Origin: Metallosphaera tengchongensis
Lineage (GTDB): Archaea; Thermoproteota; Thermoprotei_A; Sulfolobales; Sulfolobaceae
DNA: 64,000 nucleotides
Assembly (NCBI RefSeq): GCF_013343295.1
Contig: NZ_CP049074.1
Span: 725,501-789,500 of the forward strand
Direction: 5' to 3'
Position numbers and translations under genes: made by a program. The notes below the pieces were generated by a model. It saw only the letters and a program-made list of their open reading frames with translations, was not told the DNA's origin and made no database searches. Of the stretch, positions 29,041-35,755 are shown one piece after another. Positions within the stretch are counted from its first letter, which is position 1, and each line of letters opens with the position of its first letter.

Positions 29041-29137
29041 GCCGAGGTCGCCTAGCCAGGTTAGGGCGGCGGCCTGCTAATATTTGCAGGCAGCCGTTGG
29101 GGGAAACCCCGCGCGGGTTCAAATCCCGCCCTCGGCG
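29041..29137 (+). tRNA. tRNA-Ser (anticodon GCU) with a 12-nt intron
   Basis: The acceptor stem is GCCGAGG paired with CCTCGGC plus discriminator G (29137). The D stem is 3 bp (GCC/GGC), the anticodon stem GCGGC/GCCGT, and the anticodon GCT at 29076-29078. A long variable arm (GGGG-GAAA-CCCC) and T arm GCGGG-TTCAAAT-CCCGC complete a class II serine tRNA. The fold closes only if 12 nt at 29080-29091 are removed between positions 37 and 38, giving an 85-nt mature tRNA. The intron pairs CTGC of the anticodon loop with GCAG, a bulge-helix-loop substrate for the splicing endonuclease. No CCA is encoded. Confidence 0.95.
29080..29091 (+). other. tRNA intron (12 nt, position 37/38)
   Basis: ATATTTGCAGGC interrupts the anticodon loop at the canonical archaeal position. 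Its GCAG segment pairs with CTGC at 29074-29077, leaving three-base bulge-like ends at the splice sites. Confidence 0.85.
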
Positions 29138-33014: not shown

Positions 33015-33548
33015 ATGGATCAGAACAGTGGAAAAGACCCGAGTTTTCTGACTTACATTTTGTATTCAATTGTGGGAGCTGTCATATTGATATTAGTCTC
33101 ATTTCCACTTTCAGCGGTTGCACCATTGGACGAGCCTAAAGTCTATGCCTACGGAAACGCATATTACGATTTGGGCGTCCCAGTGGGTGTGTCATTTGTA
33201 GCTTTCATTAATTTATTGATATTTATCATATCTGCTATTCTTTTTTGGGGAGGGAAGAACATTTTTAAAAACCTGATCATAGACTCCTCTGCCCTATCTT
33301 TCGTTTTCTTAAATTATCTTAATTATTATATTATTTCCATTGTTTGGCACCCGGTTATAACTGTGCTTCCGTTTATGCTATTAATCCATTATAATGGTTC
33401 CAACTCACTCCAGGTGGACCTAGGTCAGATAGTATTAATAATTTATATCTACAGAATGATTAAGAGAGCTAGAAGACCCCGCCCCTTACCAGGGCTGGAA
33501 TCGGTAAAACCGGCGGATGAAAGTCCTCAGCCGGGCGGGGTACAGTGA
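33015..33548 (+). CDS. Hypothetical membrane protein with G+C-rich Pro-rich tail
   Basis: This 177-residue protein has four hydrophobic segments (about 12-38, 58-79, 88-125 and 133-145), then KRARRPRPLPGLESVKPADE, PQPGGVQ. It is not recognised. The membrane part is A/T-rich like its neighbours, but the last ~24 codons (from 33,477) abruptly become very G+C-rich. That stretch forms an RNA-like fold and leads into a C/D box RNA candidate. The tail may be a by-product of an RNA gene lying over the 3' end. Confidence 0.6.
   Translation: MDQNSGKDPSFLTYILYSIVGAVILILVSFPLSAVAPLDEPKVYAYGNAYYDLGVPVGVSFVAFINLLIFIISAILFWGGKNIFKNLIIDSSALSFVFLNYLNYYIISIVWHPVITVLPFMLLIHYNGSNSLQVDLGQIVLIIYIYRMIKRARRPRPLPGLESVKPADESPQPGGVQ
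33477..33546 (+). ncRNA. Candidate H/ACA-type guide RNA overlapping a gene end
   Basis: An 8-bp all-G/C stem pairs CCCCGCCC (33478-33485) with GGGCGGGG (33534-33541) and is followed after one base by ACA (33543-33545). Above it lies an internal loop of 7 and 6 nt, then a stem GGGCT (33493-33497) with AGTCC (33523-33527). Next come tandem G-A contacts (GA at 33499 and GA at 33520), as in a kink-turn, and a small hairpin CGGT-AAA-ACCG. This is the layout of an archaeal H/ACA unit. It was folded by eye only. A chance fold of a coding tail is the alternative. Confidence 0.4.
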
Positions 33549-33595
33549 TGACGCCGACATAAACAGATAAGTGAAGTAAGGGTCGATAAACTGAC
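33546..33595 (+). ncRNA. Candidate C/D box guide sRNA
   Basis: Box C is GTGATGA (33546-33552, perfect). A guide of 12 nt (CGCCGACATAAA) follows, then box D' CAGA (33565-33568), a 4-nt spacer, and box C' TGAAGT (33573-33578). The second guide is 13 nt (AAGGGTCGATAAA), then box D CTGA (33592-33595, perfect). Total length 50 nt with textbook spacing. The first guide can pair 8 nt with ATGTCGGC, a sequence I recall from the 23S rRNA peptidyl-transferase loop, unchecked for this organism. It begins right at the ACA of the H/ACA-like element. Confidence 0.5.
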
Positions 33596-33639: not shown

Positions 33640-35145
33640 ATGGAAGTTCCAAAGGCCAAGCCTGATGATTCAAAGGACTTTGATTTGAAGTACGCCTACA
33701 GGGCTTTAATGGTGCTAGCTCCGCTGGCAATTGTAGTGATGTACACTGAGGGCATGTTAATTCCTTCCCTAGTAAAGATAGAGGACGACTTTGGGGTCAA
33801 CGCTGCCCAGGTAAGCTGGGTTTTAACAGTGTACCTTCTGACTGGCTCAGTGATGAACCCTATAGCAGGGAAACTTGGGGATCTGTATGGCAAAAAGAGA
33901 GTTTTGACAATCATCATATGGATATATGCCCTAGGAGTGACCTTAACCGGGTTTGCACCTACCTTCAGCCTGCTGATACTAGCAAGGGCAGTTCAGGGGC
34001 TAGGATTAGCTATGTTTCCACTTGCTTTTAGTCTTATAAGGGAAGAGTTCCCTCCCAGGCTGGTCCCTACAGCCCAGGGTATAGTAAGCGCCATGTTCGG
34101 AGCGGGTTCAGCTATAGCCTTACCCATTGGAGCCTACATTTCCCAAAACTTTGGCTGGCAGTACACTTACCACTCTGTGATACCATTTGTTGTCCTCATG
34201 GCTGTCCTGACCTCTACACAGATAAGGGAATCCAGATACAAAAATCCCAACAGTAGAATTGACTTCATTGGGGCTGGGATACTGTCCTTATCTCTAGCCA
34301 CTCTCATACTAGGGTTTAGCGAAGCACCCACGTGGGGATGGAACTCTCCATTGACTATAGGTGATCTTTTGTTCTCCCTATTTGCTTTTTCATTTTTCAT
34401 CTTTTATCAGAGCAAGAATCCATTTCCTTTAATATCGGTAAAGCTTCTAAAAAGGAGGAACGTGCTCATAGCCAACATGGCTGCAGTTGTTGCCGGGTTC
34501 GCAGTGTTCATGGGGTCCCAGACCCTAACTTACCTATTTGAGGAACCTAATCCAATTGGCTTCAACTTGGACATCCAAGCAACGGGGATAGCTCTTCTGC
34601 CCACTGCCCTAATACAACTTGTCAGTGGACCAATAGCGGGGAGGCTAATATCTTCAAAGGGACCTAGATCCATAATGATAGTCGGTTCCACGATCTTAAT
34701 ACCGGTTTACCTAGCGTTATCTCTTCTGGTAACTAATGGTGGGCAGAACATCGATCCTGTAATCCTCCTGGGAACCCTAGCAATGCTAGGAGCTACCTTG
34801 CTCAACGTAAGTCTGGTAAATATGCTTACCTTCTCTGTGGAAAGACAAGTTATGGGAACTGCAACCTCAATCAACACAGTTTTCAGATTGATAGGGGGGA
34901 CAATAGGTCCCTCAGTCGCTGGTGCCATCATGGGGACTTATCAAGCAAGTTTAGTGGAAATGATACCGTTTAATAGCAACACCATATTCTATCCCATAGA
35001 ACTACCCTCTGACTATGCGTTCTCCTTAATTTTCGTAGTAGCTACAATATTGTCGGTGGTTATGACTTTTCTCTCGCTGATGGCCAAGAATATTAAACTC
35101 GGTAACCTAATGGACAATAGCCATGGAGCAGTTGCAGGACATTAG
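33640..35145 (+). CDS. MFS transporter, DHA2 (14-TM drug:H+ antiporter-like)
   Basis: This protein of about 501 residues has about 14 membrane helices of the EmrB/QacA type. Visible are motif A GKLGDLYGKKRVLTIIIW (about 78-95), the second-helix AQVSWVLTVYLLTGSVMNPIAGK, and motif C-like GAGSAIALPIGAYIS (about 150-164). It probably exports hydrophobic compounds. The start at 33640 follows a TATA box by the right distance. The 3' end overlaps the uracil-DNA glycosylase gene by 23 bp in the same direction. Confidence 0.88.
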   Translation: MEVPKAKPDDSKDFDLKYAYRALMVLAPLAIVVMYTEGMLIPSLVKIEDDFGVNAAQVSWVLTVYLLTGSVMNPIAGKLGDLYGKKRVLTIIIWIYALGVTLTGFAPTFSLLILARAVQGLGLAMFPLAFSLIREEFPPRLVPTAQGIVSAMFGAGSAIALPIGAYISQNFGWQYTYHSVIPFVVLMAVLTSTQIRESRYKNPNSRIDFIGAGILSLSLATLILGFSEAPTWGWNSPLTIGDLLFSLFAFSFFIFYQSKNPFPLISVKLLKRRNVLIANMAAVVAGFAVFMGSQTLTYLFEEPNPIGFNLDIQATGIALLPTALIQLVSGPIAGRLISSKGPRSIMIVGSTILIPVYLALSLLVTNGGQNIDPVILLGTLAMLGATLLNVSLVNMLTFSVERQVMGTATSINTVFRLIGGTIGPSVAGAIMGTYQASLVEMIPFNSNTIFYPIELPSDYAFSLIFVVATILSVVMTFLSLMAKNIKLGNLMDNSHGAVAGH

Positions 35146-35755
35146 GAACTCAGTAATAAGCTGCGAAAGGTGCAAGCTAGCCAATACCAGAAGACGCGCT
35201 GTTCCTGGAGAAGGGATAGTAAGCGAGTTGATGTTAGTTGGAGAAGCCCCAGGATCGAGAGAGGACGCTCTGGGTAGACCGTTTGTAGGGTCTGCGGGAA
35301 AATTTTTGAACCAATTACTGACTAAAGCAGGTTTATCTAGAGAATCGGTATATATCACCAATTTGGTCAAATGTAGACCCCCTAATAATAGAGATCCAGA
35401 GAAGGAAGAGATAGATGCATGCTCACCTTATCTTATTGCTGAAATAAATGTAATAAAACCTAGGATAATAGTAACTCTTGGAAGCCACTCCACAGCGTTT
35501 TTTCAGAAAATTGCGGGGTTAAGTCAAGAACCCATATCCCGTGCCAGAGGTAAAACTTTCGAAATTGCCTTTGAACACGGTAAAGTTATAATTTTTCCTT
35601 CATACCATCCTGCTGCGGCACTATACAATCCGAATTTAAGCAAGGTTATGGAGGAGGATTTTATTAGGTTGTCTCAGCTCGTGAATAGATCAAGTTCAAA
35701 AACTATCACCATAGAAAGTTTTCTAGATCAAAATGGATCTGGGAATAAAGGGTAA
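35123..35755 (+). CDS. Type 4 uracil-DNA glycosylase
   Basis: This 210-residue thermostable uracil-DNA glycosylase removes uracil from DNA, important at high temperature. The active-site motif is GEAPGSREDALGRPFVGSAG (about 40-59). Iron-sulfur cysteines are CERC near 14-17, C in KCRPP near 86 and C near 102. The C-terminal motif is HPAAAL (about 166-171). Its start lies within the end of the MFS gene and its end overlaps the SDR gene by 23 bp, a tightly packed three-gene run. Confidence 0.93.
   Translation: MEQLQDIRNSVISCERCKLANTRRRAVPGEGIVSELMLVGEAPGSREDALGRPFVGSAGKFLNQLLTKAGLSRESVYITNLVKCRPPNNRDPEKEEIDACSPYLIAEINVIKPRIIVTLGSHSTAFFQKIAGLSQEPISRARGKTFEIAFEHGKVIIFPSYHPAAALYNPNLSKVMEEDFIRLSQLVNRSSSKTITIESFLDQNGSGNKG

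Follow-up and report, generated by a model that had tools for sequence, protein, structure and literature searches.

A short segment of the 2,176,897-base chromosome of Metallosphaera tengchongensis, an archaeon that thrives in heat and acid, most probably forms one transcription unit that carries two modification guides in tandem, the first for U35 of tRNA-Tyr and the second for U2504 and U2479 of 23S rRNA (we place the probability of this reading at roughly 80%). The segment lies within the window, i.e., the whole stretch of 64,000 nucleotides that was analysed. Computation yielded both structures and their conservation, the complementarity to the targets and the way in which it coevolves with the tRNA intron, as well as the adjacency of the two halves, which is fixed across the family (Sulfolobaceae). 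By analogy with the established biochemistry of the two guide classes, which stands behind what we say of expression, protein binding and modification, the H/ACA unit would assemble with Cbf5, Nop10, Gar1 and L7Ae and guide the conversion of U35 to pseudouridine in the intron-containing pre-tRNA-Tyr(GUA), before splicing since the intron makes up half of what the guide recognises. The C/D unit would in turn assemble with L7Ae, Nop5 and fibrillarin and guide 2'-O-methylation of U2504 through its D' guide and of U2479 through its D guide.

The sequence-only reading of this DNA had described a hairpin with an 8-bp basal and a 5-bp upper stem, a kink-turn and an ACA, immediately followed by a C/D sRNA with perfect C and D boxes that starts directly at that ACA, and this is the anatomy that we found (Table 1). 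The two sides of the pocket read CTTACC(A) and (T)CAGCC, and the GA (33498-33499) and UGA (33518-33520) of the kink-turn are invariant in the family alignment A1, their G-A pairs forming the predicted L7Ae site of a putative archaeal H/ACA guide. A pocketed hairpin with an ACA right behind the basal stem, as in archaeal H/ACA guides, is present throughout, except that G020 has GCA in its place. Single-sequence folding was only moderately better than that of shuffled sequences (a z-score of -2.66, with 3 of the 200 shuffles equally good) and favoured a different apical fold; an Rfam scan of the locus returned no family above the gathering threshold, and relaxed thresholds yielded only C/D matches at chance level. 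Since folding of one sequence is thus insufficient by itself, it is the comparative evidence that decides whether the locus is real.

Table 1 Features of the tandem guide RNA locus and its surroundings (window coordinates).
Feature	Sequence	Position	Strand	Remarks
Whole tandem H/ACA-C/D guide RNA locus		33477..33594	+	Covariance model R1, 122.5 bits, E 9.5e-35
H/ACA unit		33477..33544	+	Both helices covary
H/ACA basal stem, 8 bp	CCCCGCCC / GGGCGGGG	33477-33484 / 33533-33540	+	
5' pocket	CTTACC	33485..33490	+	Predicted to pair with G37 and intron of pre-tRNA-Tyr
Possible sixth upper-stem pair	A-U	33491/33527	+	
H/ACA upper stem	GGGCU / AGUCC	33492-33496 / 33522-33526	+	
Kink-turn and apical part		33497..33521	+	GA and UGA columns invariant in alignment A1
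3' pocket	CAGCC	33528..33532	+	Predicted to pair with GGCUG, tRNA-Tyr positions 30-34; U35 at pseudouridylation site
ACA	ACA	33542-33544	+	One base past basal stem; H/ACA 3' end reads TACA
C/D box sRNA		33545..33594	+	Family-conserved boxes; relatives in other parts of the order stand alone
C box	GUGAUGA	33545-33551	+	
D' guide	GCCGACAT	33553..33560	+	8 bp with own 23S (L038); fifth base from D' box opposite U2504
D' box	CAGA	33564-33567	+	Degenerate in window
C' box	AGUGAAG	about 33570-33576	+	Degenerate in window
D guide	GGGTCGAT	33580..33587	+	8 bp with own 23S (L038); fifth base from D box opposite U2479
D box	CUGA	33591-33594	+	
TATA-like element	TTTATATC	33442..33449	+	Candidate promoter, inside ORF, 35 nt upstream of H/ACA stem
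Membrane-protein ORF		33015..33548	+	Last 24 codons (stop included) overlap H/ACA unit; no Pfam match

Homologues were detected by blastn in 19 of the 31 family genomes, and a covariance model built from 15 of these matched all 118 positions in 29 of the 31 (90–125 bits), spanning 10 of the 11 genera of the family; outside the family it gave no full-length match at a comparable score. The model found nothing in G021, an assembly that is 87% complete, while G004 carries the C/D half only (L175, G004:C1:1120303-1120372). In G022 the orthologue occupies positions 129,971-130,091. A plain pattern search (GGGGNACA-N0-8-TGATGA-N26-50-CTGA) recovered the locus in 28 of the 31 genomes, against three matches in the same genomes for the reversed control pattern. 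The sequence-only reading had named covariation among relatives as a check, with a tail conserved as protein but not as stem as the outcome that would speak against the RNA. Instead, the stems covary: in the model-fitted family alignment, which includes G004 as its one C/D-only row, 13 of the 14 stem pairs have changed in a compensatory way on both sides, 97.6% of the cells are paired, and neither any of 500 shuffles nor any slid register came near the observed covariation score. A MAFFT alignment of the first 15 sequences agrees with this result (9 of 14 pairs double-changed, 96.7% paired, 0 of 500 shuffles).

The pocket of the H/ACA unit points to pre-tRNA-Tyr. Its 3' side, CAGCC, is nearly fixed in the family, and its 5' side varies by genus, its partners being base 37 and the first bases of the tRNA-Tyr intron. 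Intron-containing tRNA-Tyr genes were recovered for nearly all genomes, and each 5' pocket fits the intron of its own genome better than the introns of other genomes (permutation p < 1e-5, a value that is optimistic because related species are not independent, although using one genome per distinct combination gave the same result). In G007, for example, an A in the pocket faces a U in the intron, whereas in G008 and G009 a U faces an A. When two rDNA stretches with 3,009 uridines in total were scored as well, U35 came out above every one of these for 13 of 15 guides, though not for G022 and G027; in these two genomes and in G023 the fit between 5' pocket and intron requires the target to bulge by 1-2 nt. 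Ribosomal RNA was considered as a target and rejected, the sites there being weaker and differing between species. In the window, the 5' pocket extended into the stem forms eight of nine pairs with the tRNA-Tyr of the same genome (L084:1501-1590), with one A-C mismatch that arises at position 33489, where the window has C and its congeners have T; the same C also changes Ser to Pro in the overlapping protein. A strict target pattern found no match in this genome, as it demanded a G where the own tRNA has an A. The tRNA-Tyr gene of G004 carries an intron in spite of the C/D-only locus. The window itself holds a different intron-containing tRNA gene (29041-29137, plus strand; Rfam 47.7 bits), missed by ARAGORN at default settings and, by eye, a tRNA-Ser with anticodon GCT.

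This bipartite complementarity, which would set U35 of pre-tRNA-Tyr(GUA) at the catalytic site, is what is expected of an Sso1-type guide, and there is little doubt that the H/ACA half is orthologous to Sso1, which is known in Sulfolobales to guide Psi35 of tRNA-Tyr. Such a guide has been tested in S. solfataricus (PMC4652768, citing Muller 2009; PMC7991803) and reported for S. tokodaii, S. acidocaldarius, A. pernix and Metallosphaera sedula in the same sources. Because our unit agrees with it in class, target and host genus, the H/ACA half is with high probability already known in kind; the descriptions in these two sources make no mention of a C/D RNA joined to its 3' end, in contrast to the locus described here. 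Matches to an H/ACA-only model in other families have different pockets and were on that account rejected as Psi35 guides.

By its sequence features, the second half qualifies as an archaeal C/D sRNA, with C (RUGAUGA), D (CUGA), D' and C' boxes and guides between them, and it is a predicted double guide for two positions of 23S rRNA beside the peptidyl-transferase centre. Rfam rRNA searches of the own genome gave no match, part of the rDNA stretch being masked with N, and the 23S gene was located with domain V of the E. coli 23S rRNA as a probe. The D guide GGGUCGAU pairs with AUCGACCC of the 23S rRNA, its fifth base lying opposite U2479, and the D' guide GCCGACAU pairs with AUGUCGGC, its fifth base lying opposite U2504 (both in E. 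coli numbering). The two sites obey the N+5 rule and lie 25 nt apart on one short stretch; pairing at U2479 amounts to 7-9 bp in all species checked and at U2504 to about 8 bp in most, while genus g6 and G001 retain the pairing of the D guide but show mismatches to 23S inside the D' guide. The unit resembles the archaeal double guides of the Sac-sR type in its boxes, guide lengths, N+5 register and 23S domain V targets, as well as in holding the stop codon of an upstream ORF in its C box (PMC7994747). It differs from them in that the neighbour 0-7 nt to its 5' side is an H/ACA RNA and not only an mRNA or tRNA.

The two guide classes thus abut in one locus, as had been claimed from the window alone, and the adjacency is kept family-wide together with the compensatory changes in the stems. 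The H/ACA unit precedes the C/D unit in all 29 genomes, and the spacer between ACA and UGAUGA is 0-7 nt in every family member with both halves. The junction has outlasted turnover of the genes upstream (the membrane protein) and downstream (a glycosylase or a transporter). Outside the family the same C/D RNA occurs alone, beside other sequence, and the junction is therefore a fusion at the level of the family; in the simplest account, the halves fused either at or near the family base, G004 later losing or separating them, or only once G004 had branched off. A second, unrelated abutment was found in another family of the order (G036; L168 / L179, G036:C3:168734-168859), where only 3 nt separate an H/ACA RNA with pockets CCTCACA and CGGTC from the complete C/D RNA that follows it. 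Its H/ACA half is widespread alone in many other genomes, its C/D half also occurs alone, and in the sister genome G035 (L209) the two RNAs are a couple of dozen nucleotides apart.

Other candidates for such a junction were set aside. One in G027 (L206, G027:C1:38442-38496) turned out to be a C/D RNA on its own, closed by a terminal stem of six GC pairs (GGGGGC/GCCCCC), with an ACA between this stem and the C box. Pattern matches outside the family in G142, G166, G174 and G212 and one extra match in G009 were taken as chance, and folding of four of them (those in G142, G166, G174 and G009) gave in no case a convincing H/ACA hairpin with a complete C/D RNA behind it. Viral contigs contained pattern matches, none of which matched the covariance model.

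In five of the six Metallosphaera genomes a TATA-like element occurs at the same position upstream of the hairpin (by a crude matrix, and in a sequence that also encodes conserved codons), and the same kind of scan found none within the H/ACA unit in this genus. Since a spacer of 0-7 nt is too short to hold a promoter, we infer that both halves are co-transcribed, a single precursor being likely in Metallosphaera. This precursor is probably cut or trimmed into two separate sRNPs, a reading to which we lean because the C/D RNA occurs alone elsewhere, the substrates of the halves are unrelated and no conserved element links them: a terminal stem that would pair the ACA with bases 3' of the D box (ACAG/CTGT in the window) is not conserved. 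Archaeal dicistronic precursors in which a tRNA is joined to a C/D sRNA are known to be cut apart (PMC3491384). Those of Nanoarchaeum equitans and others (PMC3491384, PMC7994747) likewise place a structured RNA before a C/D sRNA, probably on one precursor, but in our locus it is a guide for pseudouridylation that occupies the 5' place, and a whole family keeps the pair together.

The same observations leave an uncut RNA, i.e., a true composite RNP in which one stable molecule of about 120-130 nt would carry both enzyme sets in the whole family and couple Psi35 of tRNA-Tyr to methylation near the peptidyl-transferase centre, as a tentative and rather unlikely alternative. The persistence of the adjacency in 29 genomes and 10 genera, the independent case in G036 and a spacer that is sometimes 0 nt, leaving no obvious processing site, speak for it, against the points that incline us to cutting. 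The sequence-only reading had likened the locus to the composite guides of eukaryotic Cajal bodies. In U85, which acts in Cajal bodies, the H/ACA domain sits inside the C/D domain, between the C and D boxes. The likeness holds only insofar as composite C/D-H/ACA scaRNAs (U85; PMC4041459) also unite both guide classes in one locus; it fails in the arrangement, which here is a tandem, with the H/ACA unit outside the C-D interval in all 29 genomes.

Two independent neighbouring sRNA genes, with their own promoters or processed from the flanking mRNAs, would be a still more doubtful explanation. Most members of genus g6, as well as G024 and G027, have a TATA-like sequence in the apical part of the H/ACA unit, so that separate transcription of the C/D half is possible there, and guides that overlap ORFs often have no promoter of their own (PMC7994747). 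Yet the adjacency survives changes of both neighbouring genes, and Metallosphaera offers a C/D promoter neither space nor a TATA-like sequence.

In Metallosphaera the membrane-protein ORF terminates at the C box, whose first TGA serves as its stop codon (in G010 the stop comes a few nucleotides later); it is a known and common arrangement in archaea that a C/D sRNA gene overlaps the 3' end of an ORF in this way and that its C box holds the stop (PMC7994747). The ORF also enters the RNA in genera g3, g5, g6 and g8, stopping within the hairpin in g3, g6 and g8, whereas in g2, g7, g9, g10 and g11 the RNA persists although no homologue of the ORF extends into it; the RNA is therefore independent of the ORF. 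Among five Metallosphaera species the variable sites of the ORF tail fall 1, 3 and 13 times on codon positions 1, 2 and 3, so the tail is constrained as protein as well. The proposal that the RNA shapes the proline-rich tail of this protein consequently needs amending, in that the tail is not merely a by-product of the RNA and the protein is selected too. On the other side of the locus, G001, G005 and G027-G030 (L152, L151, L137, L142, L139 and L140) have a downstream ORF whose ATG shares bases with the D box (CTGATG), with a possible effect of this 5' overlap on the expression of that ORF; at its start the ORF is similar to the uracil-DNA glycosylase encoded in the window (35123-35755).

These overlaps, the D-box/ATG one in particular, could suggest a cis element, in which L7Ae bound to the kink-turns regulates the mRNA of the membrane protein or the glycosylase. 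A small-RNA study of S. acidocaldarius, which reports 62 C/D and 2 H/ACA sRNAs, describes mRNAs with kink-turns that are repressed by L7Ae (PMC5539422). As the sole function this is very improbable: from genus to genus both ORF overlaps appear and disappear, yet the guides and stems are retained, and the coevolution of guide and target requires a role in trans. Cis regulation may nevertheless be an additional effect of the kink-turns. A chance resemblance produced by a G+C-rich protein tail, to which the protein constraint in Metallosphaera might seem to lend itself, is refuted by the covarying stems and the conservation of the RNA in five genera without the ORF.

The tandem guide RNA locus that we favour combines halves of known kinds, and what seems new is their fixed tandem, apparently undescribed in archaea. 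Searches of open libraries found no archaeal H/ACA-C/D composite or tandem (Muller 2009 lay outside their scope), a weak sign of absence, so that the earlier statement that no archaeal composite had been described stands provisionally for the openly searchable literature. The two guide classes are normally treated as separate systems, and a tandem fixed in a whole family provides a prokaryotic counterpart to the composite and clustered guides of eukaryotes. Should it prove to be a true composite, the joining of guide classes would have arisen at least twice in archaea, given the case in G036, and independently of eukaryotes. The ACA and the C box can touch, with a spacer of 0, which poses a concrete question of RNP assembly, and the genetics available in S. 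acidocaldarius make direct testing feasible. Finally, the locus is a clear case of a guide RNA that coevolves with a tRNA intron, and it may help to explain why this intron is retained.
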